This document shows positions 15,178 to 64,000 of a DNA stretch of 64,000 bases, piece after piece. The stretch's first letter is position 1, and each line of letters begins with the position of its first letter. Position numbers and translations under genes: made by a program. Origin of the DNA: Tetracentron sinense (Eukaryota > Streptophyta > Magnoliopsida > Trochodendrales > Trochodendraceae); NCBI GenBank assembly GCA_015143295.1, contig CM026570.1:25799250-25863249 (forward strand), in the 5' to 3' direction. The notes beneath the pieces are model-generated. The model did not search any database and was not told the DNA's origin. It saw only the letters and a program-made list of their open reading frames with translations.

Positions 15178-15229
15178 AACAAATTGCTATGTTAAGAGAT
15201 TTGACAGTGTTGAATACAAATTTCGTTCT

Positions 15230-39490: not shown

Positions 39491-42400
39491 TCGGAAAAGA
39501 TTGCGTTCAAAACAACATTTTGGTTGTGATTCTGTGCTTGCTCTAGATTACTTTTTTTGTAGTTGGTAACTTAGGCAACTTATGAACCTTGTTTCCCAAA
39601 CCGGACAAATGATGTCGAAACTGAGCTAAGCAATTTCTAAAAGTTAAGATAGATTGAAATGATGCATTGGAGCATATCGAGTCAAAAAAGGAGTCCATTT
39701 TTGGAATTCTGTGCACAACTCTAGATTACTTTTTTAGTATTTTAAAACTTATGTAACTTATGAACCACATTGCCCAAATCAGACGAACAAGGTCCAAATT
39801 GAACAAAATCAATTCTAAAAGTTAGGATATTGAAACAAATGTGTTGGAGTAGATTGCTTTGAAAAAGTACTTGTTGGGATTCTGTGTGTAAATCTAGGTT
39901 ACTTTTTTAGTAAGTTTGAACTTAGTCAACTTATGAACCTTGTTGCCCAAATCGGGCAAACGAGGTCTAAATTAAACAAAACCAATTCTAAAAGTTAGGA
40001 TAGAATGAGACAAATACATCAGAGTAGACCACGTCGAAAAAGGAGTCCTTGAGATTCTGTGCGCAGCTCTTGGTTACTCTTTTTAGTAGTTTGGAACTTA
40101 GGAACCTTGTTGCCCAAATCGGGCAAACAATGTCTAAACTCTAAACTAAATTTGTCGTAGCAGACTGTGCCGAAAAAGGAGTCCGATTGAGATTCTGTGC
40201 GTAGATTTTAATAGTTTCAAACAAAGGCAACTTAGGAACGTCGTTGCTCAAATCGGGTAAACGGGGTCTAAACTGAACAAAACCATTTTTAAAAGTTAAG
40301 ATAGATTGAAAGAAATGTTTTGGAGCAGACCACGATGAAAAATGAGTCCCGATTGGGATTATGTGCGCAACTCTATGTTACTTTTTTTTAGTAGTTTGAA
40401 ACTTAGACAACTTATGACCCTTATTTCCCAAATCAGGAAAACGATAACTAAATTGAAAGAAACCAATTCTAAAAGTTAGGACTGATTGAAACAATTATGT
40501 TGGAGGAGATTACGTACAAAATAGAATTTCGGTTGTGATTTTGTGTGCGCTCTAGATTACTTTTTTTAATAGTTTGAAACTTAGGCAACTTATGAACCTT
40601 GTTTCCCAAACCGGAAAATGATTTCGAAACTGAGCTAAACAATTTCTAAAATTTAAGATAGATTGAAACAAATGTATTAGAGCATACTGAGTAGAAAAAG
40701 GAATCCATTTTTGGAATTTTATGCACAACTCTTGGTTATTTTTTTTAGTAGTTTAAAACTGATGTAACTTAAGAATAACATTGCCCAAATCGGACAAACA
40801 AGGTCTAAAATGAACAAAATCAATTCTAAAAGTTAGGATAGATTGAAATAAATGTATTAGAGTAGACCACTTCGAAAAAGAAGTCTTTGTTGGGATTCTA
40901 TGTGTAGCTCTAGGTTACTTTTTTAGTAAATTTGAACTTAGTCAACTTATTATCTCGTTGCCAAATTGGGCGAATGAGGTCTAAATTGAATGAAACAAAT
41001 TATAAAAGTTATGATAGAATGAAACAAATGCGTCAGAGCAGACCAAGCCGAAAACGGAGCCCCTGTTGAGATTCACTGCGCAACTCTTGGATAATTTTTT
41101 TAGTAGTTTGGAACTTAGGTAACTTAGGAACCTTGTTGCCCAAATCAGGCAAACAATGTCTAAACTCTAAATTAAATTCCTCATAGCAGACTGTGCCGAA
41201 AAAGAAGTCCCGGTTGGGATTCTGTACGTAGATTTTAATAATTTCAAACAAAGGCAACTTATGAATGTCGTTGCCCAAATTGGGTAAACGAGGTCTAAAT
41301 TGAACAAAACAATTTTAAAAGTTAGGATAGATTGAAACAAATGTTTTGGAGCAAACCCAGTGGAAAAAAGAGTCTCTATTGGGATTATGTGTGCAACTCT
41401 AGGTAACTTTTTTTATTAGTTTGAAACTAAGGCAACTTATGAACCTTGTTTGCCAAACCCAAGAAATGATGTCGAAATAGAGCTAAACAATTTCAGAAAG
41501 TTAAGATAGATTGAAACAAATGCGTTGGAGCAGATCAAGTCAAAAAAGGAGTCCATTTTTGGAATTATGTACACAACTCTCAGTTACTTTTTTAGGTAGT
41601 TTAAAACTTATGTAACTTATGAACCATGTTAACCAAATCAGGGAAACAAAGTCCAAACTGAACAAAATAATTTTTCTAAAAGATAGGATAGATTGAAACA
41701 AATGCATTGGAGTAGATCGCGTCGAAAGAGAAGTCCTTGTCGGGATTTTGTGTGAAGCTCTGGGTAACTTTTTTTAGTAAGTTTGAACTTAGTCAACTTA
41801 TGAACCTCGTTACCCAAATCAGGCAAACGAGGTCTAAATTGAATGACACCAATTCTAAAAGTTAGGATAGAATGAAACAAATGCACTAGAGCAGATCACG
41901 CCAAAAAGGAGTTCTTGCTGAGATTCTGTGAGCAACTATAGGTTACTTTTTTAGTAGTTTGGAACTTAGGTAACTTAGGAACCTGGTTGCCCAACTCGGG
42001 CAACCGATGTCTAAACTGAATTCGTCGGAGCAGTCTGTGTCGAAAAAGTAACCAGATTGGGATTCTATGCGTAGATTTTAATTGCATCAAACATAGGCAA
42101 CTTATGACCTTCATTGCCAAAATTGGGTAATCGAGGTCTAAAATGAACGAAACCATTTTTAAAAGTTAGCATAGATTGAAACAAATGTTTTGGAGCAGAC
42201 CGCATCGAAAAAGGAGTCCCTATTGGGATTCTGTGCCCAACTCTAGGTTACTTTTTTTTAGTCTTTTGAAACTCAGGCAAGTTATGACGTTTCCTAAATC
42301 GGGAAAACAATATCTAAACTGAACGGAACCAAATCTAAAAGTTAGGATTGATTGAAACAAATGTGTTGAAGTAGACTTTATTAAAAATAGAATTTCGGTT

Positions 42401-43017
42401 GTGATTTTGCAGGCGCTCTAGGTTGCTTTTTTTTTAGTAGTTTCAGACTTAGGCAATTATGAAACTTGTTTACCAAACCGGGCAAATGATGTCGAAACTG
42501 AGCTAAATAATTTCTAAAAGTTAAGATAAATTAAAACAAATGCGTTGGAGCATACTGAGTCAAAAAAGGTGTCCATTTTTGGAATTCTATGCACAGCTCT
42601 TAAGTTATTTTTTTTAATAGTTTAAAACTTATGCAACTTATGAACCTCGTTTCCCAAATCGGGCAAATGAGGCTCAAACTGAAGAAATCAAATTCTAAAA
42701 GTTAAGATAGATAGAAACAAATGCGTTAGAGCTGATCGCGTTGTAAAAGAAGTCCATATTGGGATTCTTTGCGTAGCTCTAAGTTACTTTTTAAAATATG
42801 TTTGAACTTAGTCAACTTATGATCCTTATTGCCAAAATCGGGCAAACAAGGTTTAAATTGAACGAAACCAATTCTAAAAGTAATGATAGATTGAAACAAA
42901 TACGTGAGAACAGACCACGACGAAAAAGGAACCCCTATTAGAGATTCTGTGCGCAGCTCTAGGTTACTTTTTTTAGTAGTTTAAAACTTATGCAACTTAT
43001 GAACCTCGTTTCCCAAA
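39491..43017 (+). repeat. ~175-bp satellite with a six-monomer higher-order repeat
   Basis: Monomers share GGGATTCTGTGCGCAACTCT, AGGTTACTTTTTTAGTAGTT, TTATGAACCTTGTTGCCCAA, ATCGGGCAAACGAGGTCTAA and AATTCTAAAAGTTAGGATAG. ATTCT marks fall at 39529, 39706, 39879, 40054, 40192, 40358, 40538, 40716, 40895, 41071 and 41219, giving monomers of about 173-180 bp with one short (138-148 bp) type. Types recur in the same order: the 'TTTTTGGAATTCTGTGCACA' type at 39706, 40716, 41574 and 42578, i.e. periods of 1010, 858 (one monomer lost) and 1004 bp. About 20 monomers in all. Non-coding. Monomer size and higher-order structure are like plant centromeric satellites, but position in the chromosome is unknown. 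Confidence 0.85.
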
Positions 43018-43524
43018 TTAAAACATATTTTAAAAGGGCCTTCAATACACCCCACTATGGCAACAAGAGCCCCTCTTACGGCCCCCAATTAAAACAATGA
43101 GGTCTTTAATAGACCCCACTATGGCAATAAGCCCCTAACTGCCCCAAATTAAAATTAACTTAAAGGGGTCCTTAATAGACTCCACCAGGACAGCAAGGAG
43201 ACCCCTTGCTGCCCCAAATTAAAACAAAGGGGTCATTAATAGACAACACCATGCTAGCAAGGACCCCATACTGCCCTAAATTGAAATTAAGATCAAATAA
43301 GACTTTAATAGATCCCACCATAGCAACAAGTAGCTTCCTTGTTGCCCCAAATTCAAATTAAGTTAAAGGGGTCCTTAATAAACCCCTCAATGGCAGCAAG
43401 GACCCCTAGTTGCCCAAATTAAAATTAAACTAAAAGGGTCCTTAATAAAGCCCACTAGGGCATCAAAGAACCCCTTTGTTGCCCCAAATTGAAATTAAGA
43501 TCAAAGGGGCCTTTAATAGACCCC
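43018..43524 (+). repeat. S array at the junction (~8 units)
   Basis: S units starting directly at the fusion with the 175-bp satellite. The first unit is partial. Confidence 0.8.
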
Positions 43525-44911
43525 GTCGAGGCCTTTTACTGCGAATATTTAATGTTTGCAACATTTATCTGTGGTAATTGGCTTTCTCCGCCATTTATCG
43601 CGAGTACCTGACGGTCGTGGTACTTTGCCATGGGAATTATTTCTTGCTACGGGCATCTCTAGTGCCTTTCATATTTTACTGCGGAGATCGAGTACCCAGA
43701 AATTTAATGCGGGTATTTAATCTTTAGGCATTTGCTGCCAATTTAAAGCTTAAGGCATTTTTCACCGTGAAGAAAATGTTCACGACATTTTGCTGTGAAA
43801 ACTTAGGGCTCGTAGCAATTTGCTGAGAACACTTGGGGTTCTCACCTCTTTATTGTGAACACTACGTTCTTGGCAATTTGTTGTGAACACTTAGCGTTCT
43901 CATTATTATGCTCTGAACACTTAGATGTTCACAGCATTTTGCCATGAACATTTAGAGCAGTTTACTCTGAACATTTTAGGGTTCATGGTATGACACTCCT
44001 CATGAGTGCCCCATACACCAAAAGATGCACTAAGCCCTCTTGGCATTCCCAGCCACTTGGCAGGATCAGAACGGTTGAGCAACCTCATCCATTATGATTC
44101 TGGGCGGCAGTTATAAGTGACGAATCTCGCCACTCATTTCGTACCCCAAACAAATGGCGGTGTGCATCGCCTACACCAGATCGAAACCCTGAGAAGGGTC
44201 GTGATCACCTCATATGTGCAAAGGCACGTGTGTGTTCTTACCGCCTTCAATTAAAACCAAATCAAAATTAAGTTAAATGGTTCCTCAATAGACCCCACCA
44301 TGACCACAAGGAGCCCCCTTGCTACCCTAAATCAAAATTAAGTTAAAAGGGCCTTCAATATACCCACGCTATGGCAGCAAGAGCCCCTCTTATAGCCCCA
44401 AATTAAAACACAGAGGTCTTCAATAGACCCCAATATGACAACATGCCCCTTGCTGCCCCAAATTATAATAAATTAAAGGGGTCCACTTAATAGACTCCAC
44501 CACGACAGCTAGGAGACCCCTTGCTGTCCCAAATTAAAATAAATGGGTCTTTAATATACCCCACCATGGCAGTAAGGAGCCCCTTGCAGCCATAAATTGA
44601 AATTAAGATCAAATAGGTTTTTAATAGATCGTACCATTGCAGCAAGTAGCTCCCTTGCTGTCCAAATTAAAATTAAACTAAAGGGGTCCTTAATAGACCC
44701 CACCATGGCCACAAGGAGCCCCTTGCTATCCCAAATTCAAATTAAGTTAAAGGGGCCTGTAATAGACCCCACCATGGCAGCAAGGACCCCTTGTTTCCCC
44801 AAATTAAAATTAAACTAGAGGGGTCCTGAATAAACCCCACCAGTGCAGCAAAGAGCCACTCTTGTTGCCCTAAATTGAAATTAAGATCAAAGGGGTCTTT
44901 AATAGACCCTG
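43525..44911 (+). repeat. Superunit: L (subfamily c) + S array
   Basis: L about 43525-44255 with GCCTTTCATATTTT, followed by about ten S units. Confidence 0.85.
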
Positions 44912-45661
44912 TCATGGCGTTTACTATCAACATTTAAAGTTTGCAGCATTTATCTGCGGCAATTGGCTTTCTCAGTCTTTTATAGTGGGTACCTAAATTC
45001 TGTGATACTTTGCCATGGGTGATATTTCTTACCACATGCATCTCTAGTGCCCATAATATTTTACTGCGGGGATTGAGTACACGCAAATTTATTGCGGGTA
45101 TTTCGGTTTTAGGCATTTGGTGCAAATTCAATGCTTAAGGCATTTTTTGTCGGGAACAAGATGTTCACGACATTTTGCTGTTCATAGTATGACACTCATC
45201 ATAAGTGCCCCATACACCAAAAGAGGCACGAAGCCCTCTTAGCATTCTCAACCACTTGACCGAATTTGAACGGTTGAGGAACCTCGGCCATTTAGATCCT
45301 GACGAACAGTAAGTGGTCATTAATAGACCCCACTATGGCCGCAAGGAGCCCATTGCTGCCCCAATTTAAAACAAAGGGGTGTTTAATAGGCCCTAGAATG
45401 GCAGTAAGGAGCACCCTTTCTCCCAAAATTAAAATTAAACTCAAGTGGTCTTTAATAGACCCCACCATAGCAGCAAGGAGCCATTTGTCCCAAATTCAAA
45501 CAAAGGGGTGTTTAATAGACCCCACAATGGCAGTAAGGAGCCCCCTTTCTCCCCAAATTAAAATTAAATCAAATGGGTCTTTTATATACACCATCATGAC
45601 AGCAAGAAGCCCATTTGTTGCCCCAAATTGAAATTAAGATGAAAGGGGTCTTTAATAGACC
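44912..45661 (+). repeat. Superunit: shortened L (subfamily a) + S array
   Basis: The L module (GCCCATAATATTTT) jumps at about 45181 from CACGACATTTTGCTG straight to TTCATAGTATGACACTC. The ~500-bp run of TGTGAACA/TGTTCACA hairpins is lost. It then passes into S units near 45311 before the usual module end. The deletion ends lie within similar hairpin arms. Confidence 0.85.
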
Positions 45662-47064
45662 CCGCCTAGGCATTTTACTGTGAACATTTAATGTTTGTAG
45701 CATTTATCTATAGTAACTGGCTTTCTCATCCTTTTATCACAGGTACCTGACTGTCATGGTACTTTGCCATGGCCGATATTTCTTGTAGCGGGCATCTCTA
45801 GTGCCCTTAATATTTTACTTCGGGGATTAAGTACCCGCAAATTTAATACGGGTATTTCATGTTTAGGCATTTGCTTCAAATATAATGCTTAAAGCATTTT
45901 TTTGTTGTGAACACTTAGGGCTCGTAGTAATTTGCTGAGAACACTTGGTATTCTCACCTCTTTGCTGCGAACATTTTGTTGTGAATACTTAGCGTATTCG
46001 TTATTTTACTGTCAACACTTTGATGTTCACAGCATTTTCCCATGAACATTAAATCCTTTGAGCAGTTTACTGTGAACATTTTAGTGTTCATAGTATAACA
46101 CTCATCATGAGTGCCCCATACACCAAAAGAGGCACTTAGCCCTCTTGGCATTCCCAGCAACTTGGCAGGATCAGAACGACTGTGGAACTTCAGCCATTAT
46201 GATTCAGAGGGGCAGTTATAAGTGCTGAAATCTCACCACTTATTCCACATTCCAAACAAATGGTGGTATGCATAGCCCACCCCAGATCACAACCCTGAGA
46301 AGGGTTGTTATCATCTCACATGTGCAAAGGCACGTGTGAGTTCTTGCAGCCTTCAATTAAAACCACCAGAAGGGGTCTTTAATAGACCCCACTATAGCAG
46401 CAAGGAGCCTCAATGTTGTCCCAACTTCAAATTAAAACAAAGGGGTTTTCCATAGACCACCACCATGGCAGCAAGGAGCCCTTGCTGCACCAAATCGAAA
46501 TTCAGGGGTCTTCATTAAACCCCACCGTGGCAACAACGAGCAACCTTTGTTGCCCCAAATCAAAATTAAGTTAAAAGGGCCTTCAATATAGCCCAGTATG
46601 GCAACAAGAGCCCCTTTTACGCCCCAAATTAAAACAACGAGGTCTTTAATAGACTGGGCTATAGCAACATGCCCCTGGCTGCCCCAAATTAAAATTAAAC
46701 TAAAAGGGTCCTAAATAGACTCCACCATGGTAGCTAGGAGGCCCTTTGCCGCCCAAAATTAAAGCAAAGGGGTCTTTAATACACAACACCATGGCAGCAA
46801 GGAGCCCCGGTGCTGCCCTATATAGAAATTAAGATCAAATAGGACTTTAATAGATCCCACCATTGCAGCAAGTAGCCCCATTGATGGCCCAAATTAAAAT
46901 TAAGTTACAGGGGTCCTTAATAGACCCCACAATGGCAGCAAGGACCCCTGGTTGCCCAAATTAAAATTAAACTAAAGGGGTCCATAATAAACCCCACCAG
47001 GTCATCAAGGAGCCCCTTTGTTGCTCCAAATTGAACTTAAGATCAAAGGGGCGTTTAATAGACC
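45662..47064 (+). repeat. Superunit: L (subfamily b) + S array
   Basis: L about 45662-46365 (GCCCTTAATATTTT). It has lost one hairpin pair near 45970, with an 11-bp stem at 46315-46340. About eleven S units follow. Confidence 0.85.
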
Positions 47065-47825
47065 CTGCTGTGGCATTTTACTGTGAACATCTAATGTTTG
47101 CAACATTTTTCTGCGGTAATTGGCTTTCTCAGCCTTTTATCGCGAGTACTGACGGTCGTGGTACTTTGCCATGGGCATTATTTCTTACCGCGGGCATCTC
47201 TAGTGCCTTTCATATTTTACTACGAGGATCGAGTACCCGAAAATTTAATACAGGTATTTAATCTTTAGGCATTTGTTGCCAACTTAATGCTTAAGCCATT
47301 TTTTGCCGTGAACAAAATGTTCATGGAATTTTGTTGTGAAAACTTAGGGCTCATAGCAATTTGCTCAGAACACTTGGGGTTCTCACCTCTTTGTTGTGAA
47401 CACTATGTTCTTGGCAATTTGTTGCAAATATTTTGTTGTGAACATTTAGCGTTCTCACTATTTTACTATGAACACTTTGATGTTCACAGTATTTTACCAA
47501 GAACATTTAATCCTCTTAGCACTTTACTGCGAACATTTTGGTGTTCACAGTAAGACACTCATCATTAGTGCCCCGTATCCAAAAGATGCACTAAGCCCTC
47601 TTGGCATCGCCAGCCACTTGGTAGGAATTGAACGGTTGAGGAACCTCAACCATTTAGACCCAGAGGGGCAACAAAGGGGTCTTTAATAGACTCCACCATG
47701 GCAACAAGGACCCCTTGTTGCCCCAAATTACAATTAAACTAAAGGGGTCCTGAATAAATCACACTAGGGCAGCAAGGAGCACCTCTTGTTGCCCCAAATT
47801 GAAATGAACATTAAAGGGGTCTTTA
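47065..47825 (+). repeat. Superunit: L (subfamily c), cut short, + two S units
   Basis: L (GCCTTTCATATTTT) runs to CAGAGGGGCA near 47669 and continues directly as ACAAAGGGGTC of an S unit, so the AAGTGGTGA hairpin and the module tail are missing. Confidence 0.85.
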
Positions 47826-49664
47826 ATAGACCCCGTCATGGCATTTATCTGCGGCAATTGGCTTTCTCGGACTTTTATCGCGGGTACCTGACTGCCGTGG
47901 TACTTTGCCATGGGCGATATTAAATGCCACGGGCATCTCTGTTGCCCATAATATTTTACCACGGGGATTGACTTCCCGCAAATTTAATGCGGGTATTTCG
48001 TCTTTAAGCATTTGCTGCCAATTTAATGCTTAAGGCATTTTTTTCCGAGAACAAAATGTTCACAGCATTATGCTGTGAAAACTTTGGGCTCGAACCAATT
48101 TGCAGAGAACACTTGGTGTTTTCACTATTTATTGTGAACACTATGTTTTTGGCAATGTGCTGCCAACATTTTGTTGTGACCACTTAGCGTTCTCATTATT
48201 TTGTTGAGAACACTTTGATGTTCACAGCATTTTGCCATGAACATTTAATGCTCTTAGCACTTTACAGTGAACATTTAGGTGTTCATAGTATGACACTTAT
48301 CATGAGTGCCCCGTATGCCAAAAGAGACATGATAAGCCCGCTTGGCATTCTCAGTCACTTGGCAGGAACTGAAAAGTTGAGGAACCTCAGCCATTCAGGT
48401 CTTGAGGGGTAGTTATAAGTGGTGAAATCTCACCACTTATTTCACACCCCACACAAATGGTGGTGTGCATCGCCTACACCATATCACAACCCTGAGAAGG
48501 GTCGTCATCACCTCACACATGCAAAGGGAAGTGTGAGTTCTTACCGCTTCGAAATAAAACCAACATACGGGTTCTCTAATAGACCTCACTAAGGCAGCAA
48601 GGATCCCCTTTGCGGCCCCAAATTAAAATTAAGACAAAGGGGTCTTTAATAGACCCCACCATGGTAGCAAGGAGCCCCCTTGCTATCCCAAAAATTACAT
48701 TAAAACAAAGGGGTCTTTAATAGATCCCACCAAGGTAGCAACGAGCCCCTTGCTGCGTTAAATTGAAATTAAATTAAAAGGGTTTTCAATAGACCCCATC
48801 ATAGGAGCAAGGAGCCCATTTACTGCTCCAAATCGAAAATAACTTAGAAGGGCCTTCAATGACCCCACCATGGAACCAAAGAGCCCTCGTGCTGCCCCAA
48901 ATTAAAACAAATTGGTCTTTAATAGACCCCACCATGGCAACAAGGAGCCCTTTGCTGCCCCATTAAAATTAAGGGGTCTTTAACAGACCCCACCATGGCA
49001 AGAGCTCCTTTGTTGCCCTAAATTCAAATTAACTTAAATGGGTCCGAATAGACCCCACCATGGTAGCAAGGAGCCCCTTGTTGCCCCATATCAAAATTAA
49101 GTTAAAGGGGTCTTCAATAGACCCCTACCATGGTAGCAATGAGCCCCTTTGCTGCCCTAAATCGAAATTAAGATAAAGGGCCATCAATAGAACCCGCTAT
49201 GGTAGTAGCGAGCCCCTTGCTGCCCCAAATTAAAACATAGAGGTCATTAATAGGCCCCACCATGGCAGCAAGGAACCCCCTTGCGGCCTCAAATTAAAAT
49301 TAAAGTACAGTGAACCTTAATAGACCCCACCATGGCAGCAATGAGCCCTTTGCTGCCCCAAATTAAAACAAAGAGGTGTTTAATAGACCCCACAATGGCA
49401 GTATGGAGCCCCTTTTCTCCCCAAATTAAAATTTAACTAAAGGGATACTTAATAGACCCCACCATGGCCGCAAGGAGCCCTTTTGCTGCCCCAAATTCAA
49501 ATTAAGTTAAAGGGGTCTTTAATAGACCCCACCATGGTAGCAAGTATCTCCTTGTTGTATCAAATTAAAACAAAGGGGTCTAACATTGACCCCACCATGA
49601 TAGCAAGGAGCCTCTTTGTTGCCCCAAATTGAAATTAAGATGAAAGGGGTCTTAAATAGACCCC
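47826..49664 (+). repeat. Superunit: L (subfamily a) + long S array
   Basis: L about 47826-48560 lacks the first GCGAACAT/ATGTTTGC hairpin (it goes from CATGGCATTTATCTGCGGC). About 17 S units follow. Confidence 0.85.
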
Positions 49665-51129
49665 GCTTTGGCATTTTACCATGAACATTTAGTGTTTGCA
49701 GCATTTATCTACGGCAACTGGCTTTCTTAGCCTTTTATCGTGGGTAACTGACTATCATGGTACTTTGCCAAGGGCGATATTTCTGGCTGCAGGCATCTCA
49801 AGTGCCCTTAATATTTTAGTGCGGGGATTGAGTACCCGTAAATTTAATACGGGTAATTAATCTTTAGGCATTTGCTGCCAATTTAATGCTAAAGGCATGT
49901 TTTACCGTGAACATTTTGTTCACGGCAATTTATTGTGAACACTTAGGGCTCACAGCAATTTGCTGAGAAGACTTGGTGTTCTCACCTCTTTGCTGTGAAC
50001 ACAATGTTCTTGGCAATTTGCTGCGAACAATTTGTCGTGAACACTTAGCGTTCTCATTATTTTACTGTGAATACTTTTTGATGTTCAATGCATTTTCCCA
50101 TGAACATTAAATCCTTTGAGCAATTTATTATGAATATTTTAGTGTTCACAGTATGACACTCATCATTAGTGCCCCATACGCCAAAAGAGGCACTAAGCCC
50201 CCCTCTTGGCATTCCCAACCACTTGGCAGGATCATAACTCTTGAGCTCAACCATTATGATTTTGAGGGGCAATTATAAGTGGTGAAATCTCACCACTTAT
50301 GTCACACCCAAACAAATGGTGGTGTGCATCGCCTACACCAAATCACTACCCTGAGAAGGGTTGTGATCATCTCACATGTGCAAAGGCACATGTGAATTCT
50401 AACTGCCTTCAATTAAAACCAACATAAGGGGTCTCTAATAGACCCCACTATACAAGCAAGGAGCCTCATTGTTGTCCCAAATTCAAATTCAAACAAAGAG
50501 GTCTTTAATAGACCACCACCACGGCAGCATGGAGCTCATTGCTGCCTAAATCGAAATTAAGTTAAAGGGGTCTTCATTAGAGCCCACCATGACGGCAAGG
50601 AGCCCCCCTTACTGCCCCAAATCAAAATCAAGTTAAAAGGGCCTCTAATATACCCCACTATGGAAGCAAGAGCCCCTCTTGCGGCCCCAAATTAAAACAA
50701 AGAGGGCTTTAATATACTCCACTATGGCAACAAGCCCTTTGCTGCCCCAAATAAATATTAAACTAAAGGGGTCCTTAATAGATTCCGCCATGGCAGCAAG
50801 GAGACCCCATGTTGCCCCAAATTAAAACAAAGGGTCTTTAATAGACAACACCATGGCAACAAGGAGCCCCCTTGCTGCCCTAAATTGAAATTAAGATCAA
50901 AGGGGTCTTTAATAGATCCCACCATGGCAGCAATTAGCACCTTTACAGCCCCAAATTCAAATTAAGTTAAAGGGGTCCATAATAGACCTCACAATGGCAG
51001 CAAGGACCCCTTATTGCCCTAAATTAAAATTAAAATAAAGCGGTCCTTAATAAACCCCACCAGGGCAACAAGGAGCCCCTTTCTTGCCCCAAATTGAAAT
51101 TAAGATAAAATGGGTCTTTAATAGACCCC
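49665..51129 (+). repeat. Superunit: L (subfamily b) + S array
   Basis: L about 49665-50415 (GCCCTTAATATTTT), then about eleven S units. Confidence 0.85.
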
Positions 51130-52399
51130 ACCGTTGCATTTTACAGCGAACATTTAATGTTTGCAACATTCATCTGCGGTAATTGGCTTTCTCAGCCTTT
51201 TATCGCGAGTACCTGACTGTCGTGCTACTTTGCCTTGGGCATTACTTCTTGCCGCGGGCATCTCTAGTGCCTTTCATATTTTACTGCGGGGATTGAGTAC
51301 CAGAAAATTTAATGCGGGTATTTAATCTTTACGTATTTGTTGAAAATTTAATACTCAACGCATTTTTTGCCACGAACATTTTGTCAATGGCATTTTGCTG
51401 TGAAAACTTAGGGCTCGCAGCAATTTGCTATCACTTGGGGTTCTCACCTCTTTGCTCTGAACACTATGTTGTAGGCAATTTATTGCGAACATTTTCTTGT
51501 TTACAACATTTTTTTGTGAACACTTAGAGTTCTCATTGTTTTGCTGCGAACACTTTGATTTTCACAGTATTTTGCCCAAAACATTTAATCCTTTTAGTAC
51601 TTTATTGTGAACATTTTGGTGTTGACACTCATCATTAGTGCCCCATATGCCAAAAGAGGCACTAAGCCCTCTTGGCATTCTCAGCTACTTGATAGGATCT
51701 GAACAGTTGAGGAACCTTAGCCATTTAGATCCAAAGGGGTAGTTTATAAGTGGTGAAATCTCACCACTTATTTCACACCCCACACAAATGGTGGTGTGCA
51801 TCGCCTACACCATATCACAACCCTGAGAAGGGTTGTGATTACCTCACATATGCAAAGGCACGTGCCAGTTCTTACCGCTTGAATTAAAACCAACATAAGG
51901 GTTCTCTAATCGACCCCACTAAAGCAACAAGGAGCCCCTTTGCTACCCCAAATTAAAAATAAGACAAAGGGGTCTATAATAGACCCTACCATGGTAGCAA
52001 GGAGCCCCCTTGCTGTCCCAAAAATTACATTAAAACAAAGGGGTCTTTAATAGATCCCGCCATGGCAGCAAGGTGGCACTTGCTGCCCCAAATCAAAAAT
52101 ACGTTAAAAGGGTCTTCAATAGACCCCTCCATGGTAGCAAGGAGCCCATTTGCGGCCCCAAATCGAAAATAACATAAAAAGGCCCTCAATATACCATACT
52201 ATGGCACCAAGGAGCCCTCGTGCTTCCCTAAATTAAAACAAAGATGCCATTATTAGACCCCCCCCCCATGGCAGCAAACCCTTTGTTGCCCCAAATTAAA
52301 ATTAAACTAAAGGGGACCTTCATAGACTCCACCATGCTAGCAAGAAGCCCCTTTGTTGGCCCAAAGTGAAATTAAGATGACCGAGGTCTTTAATAGACC
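51130..52399 (+). repeat. Superunit: L (subfamily c) + S array
   Basis: L about 51130-51895 (GCCTTTCATATTTT). An extra GTTTACAACATTTTTTTG hairpin-like insert lies near 51500. Eight S units follow. Confidence 0.85.
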
Positions 52400-53726
52400 C
52401 CGCTTTGGCTTTTTACTACGAACATTTAATTTTTGCAGCATTTATCTGTGGCAACTAGCTTTCTCAGCCTTTAATCTTCGGTACTTGACTATCATGGTAC
52501 TTTGTCATGGGCGATATTTCTTGCCGCGGGCATCTCTAGTGCCCTTAGTATTTTACTATGGGGATTGAGTACCCTCAAATTGAATGCGGGTATTTCTTCT
52601 TCAGGCATTTGCTGCCAATTTAATGCTAAAGGCATTTTTTACCGTGACCATTTTTTTCACGGCATTTTGTTGTGAACACTTAGGGCTCACAGCAATTTGC
52701 TGAGAACACTTGGTGTTCTCACCTTTTTGTAGTGAACACAATGTTCTTGGCAATTTGCTGTGAACATTTTGTTGTGAACACTTAGCGTTCTCATTATTTT
52801 ACTGTGAACACTTTGATGTTCACAACATTTTGCCATGAACATTAAATCCTTTAAGCAATTTACTATGAATATGTTAGTGTTTATAGTATGACACTCATCA
52901 TGAGTGCCCCATACACCAAAAGAGGCACTAAGCCCTCTTGGCCTTCCCAGCCACTTGGCAGAATCAGAATGGTTGAGCAAGCTCAGCCATTATGATTCGG
53001 AGGGGGTAGTTATAAGTGGTGAAATCTCACCACTTATTTCACACCCTAAACAAATGGTGGTGTGCATCGCCTATACTAGATCACAACCCTGAGAAGGGTC
53101 GTGATCATCTCACATGTGTAAAGGCACGTGTCAGTTCTTACCGCCTTCAATTAAAACCAACATAAGGGGTCTCTAATAGACCCCATTATAGCAGCACAGA
53201 GCCCAATTGTTGTCCCAAATTCAAATTAAAACAAAGTTGTCTTTAATAGACCACAACCATGGCAGTAAAGAGCCCCCCTTGCTGCCCCGAATCAAAATTA
53301 AGTTAAAAGGGCCTTCAATATACCCCACTATGGCAGCAAGAGCCCCTCTTCTGGTCCCAAATTGAAACAATGAAGTCTTTAATAAACCCCACTATGGCAA
53401 CAAGCCTCTTGCTTCCCCAAATTAAAATTAAACTAAAAGGGTCCTTAATAGACTCCACCATGGCAGCAAGGAGAGCCCTTGCTGCCCCAAATTAAAACAA
53501 AGTGGTCTTCAATAGACAACACCATGGCAACAAGGAGACCCTTGCTGCCCTAAATTGAAATAACGATCAAATGGGACTTTAACAGATCCCACCCTGACAG
53601 CAAGTAGCCCCCTTGTTGCCCTAAATTCAAATTACGTTAAATGGGTCCTTAATAGACCCCACCAGAGCATCAAGGAGCCCCTTTGTGGCCCCAAATTGAA
53701 AATAAGATCAAAGGGGCCTTTAATAG
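52400..53726 (+). repeat. Superunit: L (subfamily b) + S array
   Basis: L about 52400-53160 (GCCCTTAGTATTTT), then about nine S units. Confidence 0.85.
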
Positions 53727-54989
53727 ACCCCACCGAGGCCTTTTACTGTGAACATTTAATGTTTGGAACATTTATGTGCGGTAATTGGCTTTCTCAACCT
53801 TTTATAGCAAGTACCTAACGGTCGTGGTACTTTGCCATCGGCATTATTTCTTGCCACAGGCATCTCTAGTACCTTTCATATTTTACTGCGGGGATCACAT
53901 ACCAGAAAATTTAATGCGGGTATTTAATCTTTAGGCATTTTGCTGCTAATTTAATGCTTAAGGCATTTTTCCCGTGAAAAAAATATTCACGGCATTTTGC
54001 TGTGAAAACTTAGGGCTTGTAGCAATTTGCTGAGAACACTTGGGGTTCTCACCTCTTTGTTGGGAACACTATGTTCTTGGCAATTTGTTGTGAACATTTT
54101 TTTGTGAACACTTAGCGTTCTCATTATTTTGCTGTGAATACTTTGATGTTCACAGTATTTTACCAAGAACATTTAATCCTCTTAGCACTTTACTGTGAAC
54201 ATTTTGGAGTTCACAGTATGACACTCGATCATTAGTGCCCCATTCCAAAAGAGGCACCAAGCCCTCTTGGCATTTTGAGCCACTTGGCAGGATCTGAACC
54301 TCAGCCATTCAGATCCTGAGGGGCAGTTATAAGTGGTGAAATCTCACCACTTATTTCACACCCCACACAAATGGTGGTGTGCATCGACTACACCTGACCA
54401 CAACCCTGAGAAGGGTTGTGATAATCTCACATATGCAAAAGTACGTGTGAGTTCTTACTGCCTTGAATTAAAACTAAACGTAAGGTTTCTCTAATACACC
54501 CCACTATAGCAGTAAGGAGCCCTTTTGTTCCTTCACACCCCACACAAATGGTGGTGTGCATTGACTACACAAGACCACAACCCTGAGAAGGGTTGTGATA
54601 ATCTCACATATGCAAAAGCACGAGTGAGTTCTTACTGCCTTGAATTAAAACTATATGTAAGGGGGCTCCTTGCAGTCCCAAAAATTAAAATAAACAAAGG
54701 GGTCTTTAATGGACCCCACCATGGTAGCAAGGAGCCCCCTTGCTTCCCCAAATCGCAATTAAGTAAAAGGTTCTTCAATAGATCCGAGCAAGGCAGCAAG
54801 GTGCCCCCTTGCTGCCCCATATTCAAATTAAGTTAAAAGAGTCTTTAATAGACTCCACCATGGCATCAAGGATCTCCCGTGCTACACCAAATTAAAACAA
54901 AGGGTCTTTCATTGACCCCATCATGGCAACAAGGAGCCCCTTTGTTAACCTAAATTGAAATTATGATCGAAGGGGTCTTTAATAGACCC
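53727..54989 (+). repeat. Superunit: L (subfamily c) with a duplicated tail + S array
   Basis: L about 53727-54480. The tail from TTCACACCCCACACAAATGG through one S unit (about 54353-54529) is repeated in tandem at about 54530-54670 with few differences, a recent 177-bp duplication. Five S units follow. Confidence 0.85.
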
Positions 54990-56292
54990 CGCCGTGGCGT
55001 TTTGCTGTGAACATTTAATGTTTGCAATATTTATCGGTGCCAATTGGCTTTCTCGGCCTTTTATCAAGAGTACCTTACAATCATGGTACTTTGCCATGTA
55101 TGATATATCTTGTCGCGGGCATCTCTAATGCCCTTCATATTTTACTGTGGGGATTGATTACTCGCAAATTTAATGCAGGTATTTCATCTTTAGGCATTTG
55201 CTGCCAATTTAATGCTTTAGGCATTTTTTGCTGTGAAAATTTTGTTCACGGCATTTTGTTGTGAACACTTAGGGCTTGCAGCAATTTCCTAAGAACACAT
55301 GGTGTTCTGAAATCCTTGTTGTGAACACAATGTTTTTGGCAATTTGCTGTGAACATTTTGTTGTGAATACTTAGCGTGACACTCAACATGAGTGCCCCAT
55401 ATGCCAAAAGAGGCACTAATTCCACTTGGCATTCCCAACCACTTGGCAGGATCAGAACAGTTGAGCAACCTTAGCCATTATGATCCTGAGGGGCAGTTAT
55501 AAGTGGCGAAATCCCGCCCTTTATTTCACACCCCAAACAAATGGTGGTGTGCATCGCCTACACCAGATCACAAGCCTGAGAAGGGTCGTTATCACCTCAT
55601 ATGGGCAAAGGCAAGTGTGAGTTCTTACCACCTTCAATTAAAACAAAATCGAAATTAAGTTAAAGGGGTCATCAATAGACCCCACAATGGCCGCAAGGAG
55701 CCCCCTTGCTGCCCTAAATAACAATAAGTTAAAAGGGAATTCAATATACCCTCACTATGGCAGCAAGAGCTCCTCTTGTAGCCCCAAATTAAAACAAGAG
55801 GTCTTCGATAAACCCCATTATGGCAACAAGCCCCTTGCTGCCCCAAATTATAATTAAATTAAAGGGGCCCTTAATGGACTCCACCATGATAGCTAGGAGA
55901 CCCCTTACTGGCCCAAATTAAAACAAATGAGTCTTTAATAGACCCCACCATGCAGCAAGAAGCACTTGCAGCCATAAATTGAAATTGAGATCAAATTTGT
56001 CTTTAATAGATCCTACCATGGATGCAAGGAGCCTCCTTGCTGTAAAAATTAAAATTAAACTAAGGGGACCTTAATAGACCCCACCATGGTCGCAAGGAGC
56101 CCCTTGCTATCCGAAATTAAAATTAAGTTAAAGGAGTCTTTAATAGACCCCACCATGGCAGCAAGGTCCCCTTGTTGCCCCAAATTAAAATTAAACTAAA
56201 GGGATCTTCAATAAACCACACCAGGGCAGTAAAGAGCCCCTCTTGTTGCCCCAGATTGAAATTAAGAGTAAAGGGGTCTTTAATAGACCCCG
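54990..56292 (+). repeat. Superunit: L (mixed b/c) with deletion + S array
   Basis: The diagnostic string is GCCCTTCATATTTT, between subfamilies b and c. The module jumps near 55375 from ACTTAGCG to TGACACTCAACATGAGTG, losing three or four TGTGAACA hairpins. Confidence 0.85.
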
Positions 56293-58504
56293 TCAGGGCG
56301 TTTACTACAAACATTTAATGTTTGCAGCATTTATCTACAGCAATTGGCTTTCTCGGCCTTTTATCGCTGGTACCTGACTGTTGTGGAACTTTGTCACGGG
56401 CAATATTTCTTGCCACGGGCATCTCTAGTGCCCATAATATTTTAGTGCGGGGATTGAGTACCAGAAAATTTAATGTGGGTATTTCATCTTTAGGCATTTG
56501 CTGCAAATTGAGTGCTTAAGGAATTTCTGGTCGTGAACAAAATATTCACGGCATTTTGCTGTGAAAACTTAGGGCTCAAAGGAATTTACAGAGAACACTT
56601 GGTGTTCTCACCTCTTTGTTGTAAACACTATGGTCTTGGAAATTTGCTACCAACATTTTGTGGTGAACACTTAGTCTTCTCATTATTTTGTTGTGAACAC
56701 TTTGATGTTCACAGCATTTTGCCATGAACATTTAACCCTCTTAGCACTTTAGTGGGAACATTTTTGGTGTTCATAGTATGACACTCATCATGAGTGCCCC
56801 ATATGCCAAAAGAGGCACTATAAGCCCTCTTAGCATTCTCAGCCACTTGGCAGGATCTGAATGGTTGAGGAACCTCAGCCATTCAGATCATGAGGGGTAG
56901 TTATAAGTGGTGAAATGTCACCACTTATTTCAAACCCCATATAATTGGTGGTGTGCATCGCCTACACCATATTACAACCCTGAGAAGGGTCGTTATCACC
57001 TCACATATGCAAAGGCACGTGCGAGTTCTTACCACTTCGAATTAAAACCAACATAAGGGTTATTTAATAGACCCTACTAAGGCAACAAGGATCCCCTTTG
57101 TTGCCCCAAATTAAAATTAACACAAAGGGGTCTTTAATAGACCCCCACCATGGTAGCAAGGAGCCCCCTTGCTATCCCAAAAATTACATTAAAACAAGGG
57201 GATCTTTAATAGATCCCACCATGGCAGCAACGAGCCCCTTGCTGCCCCAAATCAAAATTAAGTTAAAAGGGTTATTTAATAGACCCTACTAAGGCAGTAA
57301 GGATCCCCTTTGCTGCCCCTAATTAAAATTAAGACAAAGGGGTCTTTAATAGACCCCCACCATGGTAGCAAGGAGCCCCCTTGCTATTCCAAAAATTACA
57401 TTAAAACAAGGGGATCTTTAATAGATCCCACCAGTGCTGCAATGAGCCCCTTGCTTCTCAAATCGAAATTAAGTTAAAAGAGTTTTCAATAGACCCCGCC
57501 ATGGCAGCAAGGAGCCCATTTGCTGCCCAAAATCGAAAATAACGTAAAAGGGCCTTCAATATACCCCACTATAGCAGTAAGGAGCCCTCGTGCTGCCCAA
57601 AATTAAAACAAAGAGGCCGTTATTATACCCCTCCATGGCAGCACGCCCCTTGCTGTCCCAAATTAAAATTAAACTATAAGGGTCTTTAATAGACTCCACC
57701 ATTACAGCAAGGAGCCCCCTTGTTGCCCCAAATTTAAACAAATTGATCTTTAATAGACCCCACCATGGCAACAAGGAGCACTTTGCTGCCCCATTGAAAT
57801 TAAGAACAACGGGGTCTTTAATAGATCCCACCATGGCAAGAAGGAGCCATCTTCTTGCCCCAAATTCTAATTAAGTTAAATAGGTCCTAATAGACACCAC
57901 CATGGCAGCAAGGAGCCCCTTGTTGCCCCAAATTGAAATGAAGTCAAAGGGGTCTTCAATAGACCCCTACATGGCAGCAATGAGCCCCTTTGATGCCCAA
58001 ATGGAAATTAAGTTAAAAGGGCAATCAATAGACCCCACTATGGTAGTAAGGAGCCTCCTTGCTACCCCAAATTAAAACAAATGTGTCATTAATAAACCCC
58101 ACCATGGTAGCAAGGAGCCCCTTTGTTGTCACAAATTAAAATTAAACTAAAGTGATCCTTAATAGACCCCACCATGGCAGCAAGGAGCCCTTGCTGTCCC
58201 AAATTAAAACAAAGGGGTGTTTAATAGAACCCACAATGGTAGTAAGGAGCCTCCTTTATCCCCAAATTAAAATTAAACTAAAGGGATCCTTAATAGACCC
58301 CACCATGGCAGCAAGGAGCCTTTTGCTGCCCTAAACCCAAATTATGTTAATGAGGTCTTTAATAGACCCCACCATAGCAGCAAGGATCTCCTTGCTGTAT
58401 CAAATTAAAACAAAGGCGTCTATCATAGACCCTACCATGACAACAAGGAGCCCCTTTGTTGCCCCAAATTGAAATTAAGATGAAAGGGGTCTTTAATAAA
58501 CCCC
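56293..58504 (+). repeat. Superunit: L (subfamily a) + longest S array
   Basis: L about 56293-57050 (GCCCATAATATTTT). In the S array a three-unit block (57057-57268) is repeated immediately (57269-57480), a 212-bp duplication with few differences. More than 20 S units in total. Confidence 0.85.
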
Positions 58505-59909
58505 GCATTGGCGTTTTATTACAAATATTTATGTTTGCAGCATTTATCTGCGGCAAATGGCTTTCTCAGCCTTTTATCGTTGGTACCTGACTGTCATGGT
58601 TCTTTGCCATGGACGATATTTCTTGCCACGAGCATCTCTAGTGCCCTTAATATTTTATTGCGGGGAGTGAGTACCCGCAAATTTAATGCGGGTATTTCAT
58701 CTTTAGGCATTTGTTGTCAGTTTAATGCTGAAGGCATTTTTTGCCTTGAACATTTTGTTAATTGCATTTTGTTGTGAACACTTAAGGCTCGCAGCAATTT
58801 GCTGAGAACACTTCGTGTTCTCAATTCGTTGCCGTGAACCCAATGTTTTTGGCAATTTACTGCGAACATTTTGTTGAGAACATTTTGCGTTCTCATTATT
58901 TTGCTGTGAACACTTTGATGTTCCCAACATTTTGCCACGAACATTAAATCCTCTGAGTAGTTTATTGTGAACATTTTAGGGTTCACAGTATGACACTCAC
59001 CATGAGTGCCCCATACGCCAAAAATGGCACTAAGCCCTCTTGGCATTACCAACCACTTGGCAGGATCAGAACGGTTGAGCAACCTCAGCCATTATGATCC
59101 TGAGGGGCAGTTATATGTGGAAAAATCTCACCACTTATTCACATCCCAAACAAATGGTGGTGTGCATCGCCTACACCAGATCACAAGCCTGAGAAGGGTC
59201 GTGATCACCTCATATGTGCAAAGGCACGTATGAGTTCTTACCGCCTTGATTTGAAACCAAATAGAAATTAAGTTAAAAGGGTCATCAATAGACCCCACCA
59301 TGGCCGCAAGGAGCCCCCTTGCTGCCCCAAATCAAATTTAAGTTAAAAGGGCTCCTTCAAGATACCCTCACTATGGCAGCAAGAGCCCTTTTGCAGCCCC
59401 AAATTAAACAAAGAGGTCTTCAATAGACCCCAATATGGCAACAAGCCCCTTACTACCCCAAATTATAATTAAATTAATGGTGTCCTTAATAGACTCCACC
59501 ATGACAGCAAGTAGACCCCTTGCTGCCCCAAATTAAAATAAACAGGTCTTTAATAGACCCCACCATGGCAACAAGGTGCCCCTTGCAGCCATAAATTGAA
59601 ATTAAGATCAAATGAGTCTTTAATAGATCCTACCATGGCAGCAAGTAGCCCCCTCGCTGTCCAAAGTAAAATTAAACTGAAGGAGTCCTTAATAGGGCCC
59701 ACCATGGCCGTAAGGAGCCCCTTACTATCCCAAATTAAAATTAAGTTAAAGGGGTCTTTAATAGAGCCCACCATGGCAGCAAGGACCCCTTGCTGCCCCA
59801 AATTAAAATTAAACTAAAGTGATCCTCATTAAACCCCATCACGGCGGCAAGGAGCCCCTCTTGTTGCCCCAAATTGAAATTAAGATTAAAGGGGTCTTTA
59901 ATAGAACCC
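58505..59909 (+). repeat. Superunit: L (subfamily b) + S array
   Basis: L about 58505-59255 (GCCCTTAATATTTT), with a perfect 8-bp TACCCGCA/TGCGGGTA stem at 58672-58694. About ten S units follow. Confidence 0.85.
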
Positions 59910-61904
59910 GTCATGGCGTTTACTGCGAACATTTAATGTTTGCAGGATTTATCTGCGGCAATTGGCTTTCTCGGCCTTTTATCGCGGGTACCTGACTGTC
60001 GTGGCACTTTGTCAAGGGCAATATTTCTTGCCACGGGCATCTCTAGTGCCCATAATATTTTACTGCGGGGATTGAGTACCAGCAAATTTAATGCGGGTAT
60101 TTCATCTTTAGGCATTTGCTACGAATTTAATGCTGAAGGCATTTTTTGCCGGGAACAAAATAATCACGGCATTTTGCAGTGAAAAATTAGGGCTCGAAGA
60201 AATTATAGAGAACACTTGGTGTTCTCACCTCTTTGTTGTGAACACTATGTTCTTGGAAATATGCTGCCAACATTTGTTGTGAACACTTAGTGTTCTCATT
60301 ATTTTGTTGTGAACACTTTTATGTTCACAACATTTTGTCATGAACATTTAACCGTCTTAGCACTTTAGTGGGAACATTTTGGTGTTCATAATATGACATT
60401 CATCATGAGTGCCCCATATGTCAAAAGAGTCACTATAGGCCCTCTTGGCATTCTAAGCCACTTGGCAGGATCTGAATGGTTAGGGAACCTCAGCCATTCA
60501 AATCATGAGGGGTAGTTATAAGTGGTGAAATCTCACCACTTATTTCACACCCCACACAAATGGTAGTGTGTATCGCCTACACCATATCACAACCCTGAAA
60601 ATGGTCATTATCACTTCACATATGCAAAGGCACGTGCGAATTCTTACCGCTTTGAATTAAAACCAACATAAGGGTTATTTAATAGACCCTACTAAGGCAG
60701 CAAGGATCCCCTTTACTGCCCCAAATTAAAATTAAGACAAAGGGGTCTTTAATAGACCCCACCATGGTTGCAAGGAGCCCAACTGCTTTCCCAAAAAATT
60801 TTGTAAAACAAATGGGTCATTAATAGATCCCACCATGGCAGCAACGAGCCCTTTGCTACCCCAAATCGAAATTTATTTAAAAGGGTTTTCAATAAACCAC
60901 ACCATGGCAGCAAGGAACCCATTTGCTACCCAAAATCGAAAATAACGTAAAAGGGGCCTCAATATACCCCACTATAGCAACAAGGAGCCCTCGTGCTGCC
61001 CTAAATTAAAACAAAGAGGCCGTTATTAGACCCCACCATGGCAGCACACCCCTTGCTGCCCAAAATTAAAATTAAACTAAAAAGGTCCTTAATAGACTCC
61101 ACCATTGCAGCAAGGAGCCTCCTTGTTGCCCTAAATTAAAACAAATTGGTCTTTAATAGACCCCACCATGGCAACAAGGAGCCCTTTGCCGCCCCTTTGA
61201 AATTAAAAACAAAGGGATTTTTAATAGACCCCACCATGGCAACAAGGTGCCACCTTCTTGCCCCAAATTCTAATTAAGTTAATTAGGTCCTAATAGACAC
61301 CACCATGGCAGCAAGGAGCCCCTTGTTGCCCCAAGTCGAAATTAAGTTAAAGGGGTCTTCAGTTAACCCCTACATGGCAACAATGACCCCCTTTGCTGCC
61401 CCAAATCAAAATTAAGTTAAAAGGGCGATCAATAGACCCCACTATGGTAGTAAGGATCCCCCTTGCAACCCCAAATTAAAACAAAGGTGTCATTAATAGA
61501 CCCCACAATGGCAGCAAGGAGCCCCTTTGCTATCACAAATTAAAATTAAACTAAAGTAGTACTTAATAGACCCCACCATGACAGCAAGGAGCCCTTTGCT
61601 GTCCCAAATTAAAACAAAGGGGTGTTTAATAGACCCTAATATGGCAGTGAGGAGCCTCCTTTCTCCCTAAATTAAAATTAAACTAAAGGGGTCCTTAATA
61701 GACCCCAGCATGGCAGCAAGGAGCCTTTTGCTGCCCCAAACACAAATTATCTTAAAGGGGTCATTAATATACCCCACCATAGCAGTAAGGATCTCCTTGC
61801 TGTATCAAATTAAAACAAAGGGGTCTATCATAGACCCGACAATGACAGCAAGGAGCCCCTTTGTTGCCCTAAATTGAAATTAAGATGAAAGGGGTTTTTA
61901 ATAG
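59910..61904 (+). repeat. Superunit: L (subfamily a) + long S array
   Basis: L about 59910-60665 (GCCCATAATATTTT), then about 19 S units. It is closely collinear with 56293-58504, apart from the 212-bp duplication there. Confidence 0.85.
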
Positions 61905-63324
61905 ACCCTGCCTTAGCGATTTACTACGAACATTTAATGTTTGTAGTATTTATCTGTGGCAACTAGCTTTCTCAGCCTTCTATCGCAGGTACCAGACTGT
62001 CATGGTACTTTGCCATAGCCGATATTTCTTGCGGCGGGAATCTCTAGTGCCCTTAATATTTTAATGTGGGGATTGAGTACCCGTAAATTTAATGTGGGTG
62101 TTTCATCTTGAGGCATTTGCTGCCAATTTCATGTTGAAGGCATTTTTTACCGTGAACATTTTGTTCACAGCATTTTGTTGTGAAAACTTAGGGCTCGCAG
62201 CAATTAGCTGAGAACACTTGGTGTTCTCAACTCTTTGTTGTGAACAGATAGCATTCTCATTATTTTACTGTGAACACTGTGATGTTCACAGCATTTTACC
62301 ATGAACATTAAATCCTTTGAGCAGTTTACCTTGAATATTTTAGTGTTCACAGTATGACACTCATCGCGAGTGCCCCATACACCAAAATAGGCATTCTTGT
62401 CATTCCCAGCCACTTGGCAGGATCAGAACGGTTGACCAACCTCAGCCGTTATGATTTTGAGGGGCAGTTATAAGTGGTGAAATCTCACCACTTATTTATT
62501 TCACACCCCAAACAAATGGTAGTGTGTATCGCCTACACCAGATCACAACCCTAAGAAGGATCGTGATCATCTCACATGTGGAAAGGCACGTGTAAGTTGT
62601 TACCGCCTTCAATTAAAACCAACAGAAGGGGGGTTCTCTAATAAACCCCGCTATAGCAGCAAGGAGCCTTATTTCTATCCCAAATTCAAATTAAAACAAA
62701 GGGGTCATTAATAGACCACCACCAATGCAGCATGGAGCCCTTGCTTCACTAAATCGAAATGAAGTTAAAGGGGTCTTCATTAGACCCCACCATGGCAGCA
62801 AGGAGCCCCCCCAAATATAAATTAAGTTAAAAGGGCCTCTAATATACCCCTCTATGGCAGCAAGAGCCCCACTTGCGGTCCCAAATTAAAACAATGAGGT
62901 CTTTAATAGACCCTACTATGGCAACAAGCCCCTTGCTGTCCCAAATTAAAATTAAACTAAAGGGGTCCATAATAGACTCCACCATGGCAGCAAGGAGACC
63001 CCTTGCTGCCCCAAATTAAAACAAGGGGTCTTTAATAGACAACACCATGGCAGCAAGCAGCCCCCTTGCTGCCCTAAATTGAAATTAAGATCAAATGACA
63101 CTTTAATAGATCTCACCATGGCAGCAAGTAGCCCCCCCTTGCTGCCCCAAATTCAAATTAAGTTAAAGGGGTCCTTAATAGACCCTACAATGGCAGCAAG
63201 GACCCCCGATTGCCAAAATTAAAATTAAAATTAAAATAAGGGGTCCTAAATAAACCCCATCAGGGCATCAAGGAACCCCTTTGTTGCCCCAAATTGAAAT
63301 TAAGATCAAAGGGGCCGTTAATAG
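61905..63324 (+). repeat. Superunit: L (subfamily b) + S array
   Basis: L about 61905-62630 (GCCCTTAATATTTT), missing one hairpin near 62240. About ten S units follow, including the perfect 10-bp stem at 62986-63010. Confidence 0.85.
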
Positions 63325-64000
63325 ACCCCGCCGAGGCCTTTTACTGCGAACATTTAATGTTTGTAACATTTATCCGTGATAATTGGCATTCTTAGCCTTT
63401 TATCGCGAGTACCTGACGGTCGTAGTACTTTGCCATGGGCATTATTTCTTAGCATGGGCATCTCTAGTGCCTTTCATATTTTACTGTAGGGATCGAGTAC
63501 CCGAAAATTTAATGCGGGTATTTAATTTTTAGGCATTTGCTACCAATTTAATGCTGAAGGCAGTTTTTGCCGTGAACAAAATGTTCACGGTATTTTGCTG
63601 TGAAAGCTTAGGGCTCGTAGCAATTTGCTGAGAACACTTGGGGTTCTCACCTCTTTGTTGTGAACACTATGTGATTGGCAATTTGTTGTGAATATTTTGT
63701 TGCGAAAACTTAGCGTTCTCATTATTTTACTATTAACACTTTGATGTTCACAATATTTTACCAAGAACGTTTAATTCTCTTAGCACTTTACTGTGAACAT
63801 TTTGGTGTTCACAGTATGACACTCATCATAAGTACCCCATTTCCAAAAGAGGCACTAAGCCCTCTTGGCATTCCCAGTCACTTAACAAGATCTGAACGGT
63901 TGAGGAACCTTAGCCATTTAGATCCTGAGGGGCAGTTATAAGTGGTGAAATCTCATCACTTATTTCACACCCCACACAAATGGTGGTGTGCATCGCTTAC
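63325..64000 (+). repeat. Superunit: L (subfamily c), cut by the window end
   Basis: L module (GCCTTTCATATTTT) running to the window edge at the GGTGGTGTGCATCGC segment. Confidence 0.85.

Follow-up and report, generated by a model that had tools for sequence, protein, structure and literature searches.

Ordinary satellite growth copies one unit, and a founder made of different hairpins, each with individually matched arms, is hard to obtain in that way. How such an array could have arisen, and whether its hairpins are kept up at present, is the question raised by a hairpin-rich satellite of Tetracentron sinense that fills two blocks, A (positions 1-5763) and B (43012-64000), of a 64,000-nucleotide window, by which we mean the whole stretch analysed (GenBank assembly GCA_015143295.1, contig CM026570.1, forward-strand positions 25,799,250 to 25,863,249). 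The founder, for which we take the consensus, consists of some two dozen different hairpins in a chain. These hairpins are decaying and are hardly maintained now, if at all; mutations private to single copies of the longer repeat unit give no indication that selection or repair acts at present. We consider it likely that the array is a higher-order satellite in neutral decay whose hairpins were formerly matched.

A tandem satellite with a founder of different hairpins

The two blocks make up a single tandem satellite family, arranged head to tail and composed of two units. The shorter unit, S, is a 67-bp double hairpin present in 204 copies, which form 21 arrays with between 1 and 22 copies each; in a profile search of the window all 204 full-unit matches lay on the + strand, and 99 extra minus-strand matches to the same profile fall inside both blocks and reflect the self-complementarity of the unit. 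The longer unit, L, has a consensus of 737 bp and 21 copies or fragments that alternate with the S arrays, are 88-94% identical to the consensus and start 0.8-2.2 kb apart. In 19 of the 21 arrays the final S is truncated after its first hairpin (profile end 45 or 46) and L starts there. Neither unit was found within the window in the roughly 37 kb between the blocks. The family is a higher-order tandem satellite that probably lies in plant nuclear DNA, each repeat consisting of one L and 1-22 S, head to tail.

The relationships among copies suggest how the array grew. Among 182 nearly complete S copies (of the 204), the closest relative lies within the same array for only 7 (11.4 expected by chance) and is an adjacent neighbour for none. 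Clusters of similar S copies tend toward like distances from the following L; for example, one 12-member cluster is always third from the end. A tree of 19 of the 21 L copies recovers group C (7 copies, support 99/99) and group A (6 copies, 94/96), interleaved along the array, and leaves a remainder, group B, that is not one supported clade. S copies are in this sense more alike between arrays than within one, and they lie in tandem, head to tail, as in higher-order-repeat satellites. The rarity of relatives within an array, the like positions of cluster members and the interleaved L groups together argue that whole blocks of L and multiple S were amplified together, which would match what unequal exchange gives.

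Hairpins are abundant beyond what base composition provides. Counting inverted repeats with perfect arms and loops of 3-10 nt against the mean of 20 dinucleotide shuffles, we find 69 with arms of at least 6 bp in block A (12.9 in shuffles) and 172 in block B (47.1), and with arms of at least 8 bp 24 (0.9) and 59 (3.7), respectively. Neither adjacent satellite has a clear excess at arms of at least 6 bp (137-bp satellite, 4 against 3.4; 180-bp satellite, 12 against 9.3); a milder enrichment is present in the mid-window sequence (110 against 74 for arms of at least 6 bp, 20 against 5.7 for at least 8). The hairpin excess is real and, among the window's three satellites, specific to the hairpin family.

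The consensus sequences carry this property in its purest form. That of S consists of a perfect 7-bp hairpin and a perfect 10-bp hairpin, with 17 of 17 pairs intact, followed by an A/T-rich spacer. That of L, folded with pairing limited to 45 bases, reaches -276.1 kcal/mol against -148.4 ± 9.2 in 200 shuffles (z -13.9); three parts of it each contribute to the excess (z -6.3, -9.2 and -9.1), and 30 helices of at least 4 bp have spans that by simple addition cover about 80% of the 737 bp. The opposite strand folds about equally well (-270.9; without G-U pairs, -233.0 and -236.6 for the two strands). Folding of individual copies covered the 18 of the 21 that exceed 500 bp; these too fold better than their shuffles, with z from -4.4 to -10.8. 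Bases covered by perfect hairpins with arms of at least 6 bp amount to 24.4% in block A and 16.8% in block B, against 4.2% in shuffles. A preliminary description of this DNA, made from its letters, had placed one satellite family in these same two blocks and proposed an excess of inverted repeats, and both points hold. Its further statement that nearly every 20-45 bp forms a hairpin is close to true of the computed consensus; with the coverage of real copies at these levels, it does not describe the actual sequence.

An older layer is visible inside L, whose first ~480 bp are degenerate ~30-bp repeats, many of which are hairpins that each have a distinct arm sequence. Self-identity of L is 0.438 at a lag of 30, against 0.20-0.36 at the other lags listed between 24 and 35. 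When the 5' and 3' halves of 15 such units are paired with their own partners, the total is -154.8 kcal/mol against -106.0 ± 11.9 for permuted partners, a value that 0 of 20,000 permutations reach, and for 11 of the 15 units the own half is a better partner than the others are on average. The units were delimited by hand at TTT spacers, and for two of the 15 the limits were set wider than in the periodicity and fixed-alignment analyses; without these two, P is 0.0001, and with units u8-u15 alone it is 0.04. In the fixed-alignment count, 10 of the 15 units that we judged cleanly aligned give P of 0.00075, which we set aside because the selection was our own. The arm-swap test rejects the idea that all L hairpins merely inherit one ancestral palindrome (0 of 20,000). 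Different hairpins within L have thus diverged with their arms matched, as had been suspected from the letters, and the individually matched arms of the ~30-bp units indicate that pairing was kept or remade in a phase predating the present copies.

Loss of pairing among present copies

When the present copies of any given hairpin are compared, most changes are seen to disrupt its pairing. L stems diverge from the consensus by 9.6% and unpaired sites by 8.6%. Where Watson-Crick pair cells of L have changed, 515 changes are one-sided and 33 compensated, against 24.5 ± 3.6 under column shuffling, and 9 of these 33 are a single T-A/A-T pair, which every one of the seven group C copies carries, along with one copy of group B and a fragment. 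Each of the 18 long copies folds worse than the same consensus columns. Helices of L with a single stem change show 106 losses, 14 gains and 5 unchanged; those with two show 64, 3 and 33, and those with three or more 79, 1 and 4. Between L copies G.T pairs number 148 and A.C pairs 162.

Counts for S, made over all 204 rows and only at cells with letters on both sides, tell much the same. Watson-Crick cells number 2383 of 3125, against 2371 ± 10 expected, and compensated cells 35 against 30.9 ± 4.7; between copies there are 187 G.T and 248 A.C pairs. Pairing drops stepwise from the consensus (17/17) through cluster consensuses (294/348) to all copies (2383/3125). Covariation of paired arms across copies is thus near chance in both units. 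The preliminary description had the same hairpin keep pairing while its arms vary, and its two examples, TGTGAACA/TGTTCACA and GAGAACAC/GTGTTCTC, do not bear this out: they are not one covarying hairpin, being instead two paralogous hairpins of L, u13 and u10.

Mutations private to single copies have a clear direction of change; the test restricted to them covers L. Each copy's substitutions were randomly placed on the consensus, with base and methylation context kept. The private mutations fall 117 times in stems against 111.8 expected, the mean z of their effect on folding is -0.05 ± 0.28, and they yield 19 G.T and 23 A.C pairs. C>T changes in L occur at 17.3% of CG, 13.7% of CHG and 6.5% of CHH sites, a gradient that is expected of plant DNA methylation and fits methylated chromatin.

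One L copy stands apart. In that at 1713-2448, alone among the 18, private mutations stabilise the predicted fold (-290.2 against the consensus -276.1; z -3.66), so that it stays an outlier in this test.

Several observations weigh against a wholly neutral decay of formerly matched hairpins. Matched double changes in L number 33, against 2-16 across controls with slid partners, so that a small real excess of compensated changes may remain. With all variants included, substitutions in L are placed slightly better for folding than random (z -1.20 ± 0.23), as they are with a shifted control and a leave-one-out group consensus (-0.81 ± 0.28); this signal stems at least partly from variants shared by copy groups, whose ancestral state is uncertain, and is gone with private mutations. 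The same test on all variants of S gives z -0.26 ± 0.07. Two small tallies from an older level point the same way, with 10 G.T against 6 A.C among L group consensuses (plus 6 Watson-Crick and 9 other) and 18 G.T against 10 A.C among flanked mismatches of the L consensus. Among the 21 of 65 S clusters used (those with at least 3 members, 135 copies in all), the consensuses have 294 paired cells against 288.0 expected by independence, 4 compensated against 1.3, and stems diverged by 9.0% against 11.4% for unpaired sites. On the older phase itself, a fixed-alignment count in the L units gives a weaker result than the arm-swap test (90 pairs against 79 ± 5.2, P 0.024), the excess of own-arm pairing in S is weak (P 0.015 and 0.009, arm-swap test), and among L copies no multi-base matched arm replacement, the footprint of a template switch, clearly stood out. 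Taken together, these signals make some weak maintenance conceivable at an intermediate age, and as one window was examined, younger arrays elsewhere may behave differently. A process barely visible at about 10% divergence could hardly have kept stems matched while the 30-bp units diverged far more, which suggests that the regime must have changed.

Origin of the hairpins and competing explanations

The layered record of old matched arms and recent, nearly free decay raises the question of whether template switching can build chains of hairpins without selection and then stop. Template switching has been reported both to produce hairpins and to repair them (PMC8794818). We tentatively prefer fold-back template switching as the origin of the hairpins here, unproven as it is. 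In an older phase short hairpin units would have multiplied in tandem, and their arms may have been rewritten during DNA synthesis by a nascent strand that folded back and used its other arm as template. Once the units had been amplified, within methylated chromatin, such rewriting would have ceased or grown too rare to see, leaving the hairpins as fossils. Hairpins made in this way would have different, well-matched arms without selection, and matched divergence is what the old layer of L has; one-step, multi-base matched replacements, the footprint expected of such a mechanism, did not clearly stand out in the recent satellite copies, and this part of the account is therefore an inference.

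A more specific and more doubtful version is that a nuclear or organelle element able to rewrite its hairpins has left the satellite as its fossil, an element that was a chain of about two dozen short units whose arms were continually re-copied from one another, diverging yet staying well paired, until the process was lost once the element had become a methylated satellite. If that were true, the same genome, or those of relatives, may still harbour living versions.

It is also conceivable, if unlikely, that the founder belonged to a mobile element, whether a fold-back element or a DNA transposon with its terminal or subterminal repeats, that its hairpins served transposition and that the satellite arose by tandem expansion of that region. 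Matching of arms in the old layer followed by decay fits an element once active and later dead, and the ~30-bp subrepeats of L resemble those of fold-back and CACTA ends. Against this, within the window no S or L copies were found outside the two blocks, and the 17 frames scanned against Pfam, out of 43 of at least 80 aa between 7000 and 39700, gave no transposase match; moreover, repeats that serve as binding sites would be expected to retain their sequence and not to co-vary.

We regard as improbable an origin in which organelle DNA with many selfish palindromic repeats entered the nucleus, where it turned into a satellite and is inert today. The compact double hairpin of S would suit it, as would the same order of events in the satellite, with hairpins made first and decaying later; palindromic repeats of Volvox carteri organelles have nuclear copies that appear inert (PMC2670323). 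Such organelle elements are described as dispersed, however, whereas the satellite here is a tandem array. A search of the whole window returned 0 Rfam matches at gathering score, and no tRNA was found.

Very unlikely, in our judgement, is that transcripts of the array act as a structured or siRNA-generating RNA whose base pairing is selected now. In favour of such a function one may cite the strong folding predicted for L, consensus and copies alike, five weak Rfam matches resembling miRNA precursors in 50400-53200 (all below their gathering scores), the slight structure-sparing bias that appears with shared variants counted in, the weak own-arm excess in S, and the divergence of S, lower in loops (8.4%) and stems (13.3%) than in the spacer (15.8%). 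A selected transcript would, however, favour G.T over A.C on its own strand, and in neither unit do G.T pairs between copies exceed A.C; the two consensus strands fold about equally. The lack of stem conservation in L (9.6% against 8.6%), the missing G.T bias and private mutations blind to structure together make an RNA under current selection unlikely. The same results, with a compensated excess that is small at most, speak against the broader suggestion of the preliminary description that selection or a copying mechanism favours hairpins at present. RNA-level selection on the present copies was likewise rejected by column-shuffled covariation, rates in stems and unpaired sites, G.T against A.C counts and the placement of mutations.

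Least credible of all is that the dyad symmetries serve centromere identity through cruciform DNA, as proposed for other satellites: such symmetry is enriched in the hairpin satellite and not in its two neighbours, and an enrichment at the centromeres of several species has been reported (PMC9070824), but pairing is being lost without clear constraint and about 37 kb with other satellites and part of a gene separates the blocks.

The wider caution is that visible hairpins, or repeat arms whose changes look compensatory, need not mean present function.

Layout, surroundings and known systems

The units of both blocks all lie on the + strand. Block A, with 43 S and 5 L copies or fragments, has at its left an array of four S (22-276), built of a 7-bp hairpin, a 10-bp hairpin and an A/T-rich spacer, then a group A L (277-982), a single S (983-1048), an L fragment (1049-1276), seven S (1277-1712), a group B L (1713-2448), 19 S (2449-3698), a group C L (3699-4401), 12 S (4402-5191) and a group A L truncated by the block edge (5192-5763). 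The block thus ends abruptly inside L, against the 137-bp satellite.

Block B, with 161 S and 16 L copies or fragments, begins at 43012 in S, adjoining the 180-bp satellite, with the motif CCCAAAT common to both at the join, and continues past the window end. Its first arrays hold eight (43017-43532), ten (44260-44918), six (45308-45672), eleven (46356-47075) and three (47671-47843) S copies, each followed by an L, namely one of group B (43533-44259), one of group A shortened to only 389 bp (44919-45307), one of group C (45673-46355), one of group B shortened to only 595 bp (47076-47670) and one of group A (47844-48551). Seventeen S (48552-49673) then lead to a group C L (49674-50410), eleven (50411-51138) to a group B L (51139-51881), eight (51882-52409) to a group C L (52410-53148) and nine (53149-53739) to a group B L (53740-54465). 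A single S (54466-54529) precedes a short L-like fragment (54530-54682), five S (54683-54998) a group C L (54999-55646) and ten S (55647-56299) a group A L (56300-57039). The longest array, of 22 S (57040-58512), is followed by a group C L (58513-59259), ten S (59260-59917), a group A L (59918-60654), 19 S (60655-61917), a group C L (61918-62610), eleven S (62611-63337) and a group B L truncated by the window end (63338-64000).

The 137-bp satellite (5764-7047) and the 180-bp satellite (39701-43006) directly adjoin the hairpin blocks. Between them, a stop-to-stop frame of 125 aa on the minus strand (14809-15186) matches the Pfam Ku C-terminal domain (Ku_PK_bind, E 9e-14), which indicates that a Ku80-like gene, or at least part of one, lies in the inter-block segment; the frame has no solved-structure match at E 0.01. 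A homogeneous 59-bp tandem repeat at 15995-16226 (3.9 copies, 95% matches) is more uniform than the window's satellites, and degenerate AACCCTAGG-type repeats occupy 37277-37522 and resemble interstitial plant telomere repeats.

The hairpin satellite is provisionally undescribed, in comparison with the Rfam, viral, prokaryote, plasmid and phage collections and not with plant, repeat or organelle databases. Three exact satellite strings had no match in viral and prokaryote contigs, blastn of 51139-53148 had none among plasmids and phages, no paper in the open-access literature was found to contain any of four satellite motifs, and among the papers that literature searches listed we recognised none as describing the family. 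The suggestion that it belongs to no described family and may be new therefore agrees with the collections searched and is provisional to the extent that plant and organelle databases lay outside them.

Among systems with similar parts, the palindromic repeats of Volvox organelles (PMC2670323) and the repetitive hairpin-forming elements of sponge mitochondria (PMC2800124) are likewise short hairpin modules in large numbers, and the Volvox nuclear copies are said to appear inert; the modules here differ from both in forming a tandem satellite. Centromeric satellites with dyad symmetry (PMC9070824) share the enrichment of short dyads, whereas here the symmetry is decaying.

The hairpin satellite is a higher-order satellite with an unusual founder. 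Like higher-order-repeat satellites of the alpha-satellite style, it has head-to-tail units, blocks amplified together and interleaved groups, here of L; unlike them, it combines two unlike units, varies in S number from 1 to 22 and descends from a founder made largely of different hairpins.

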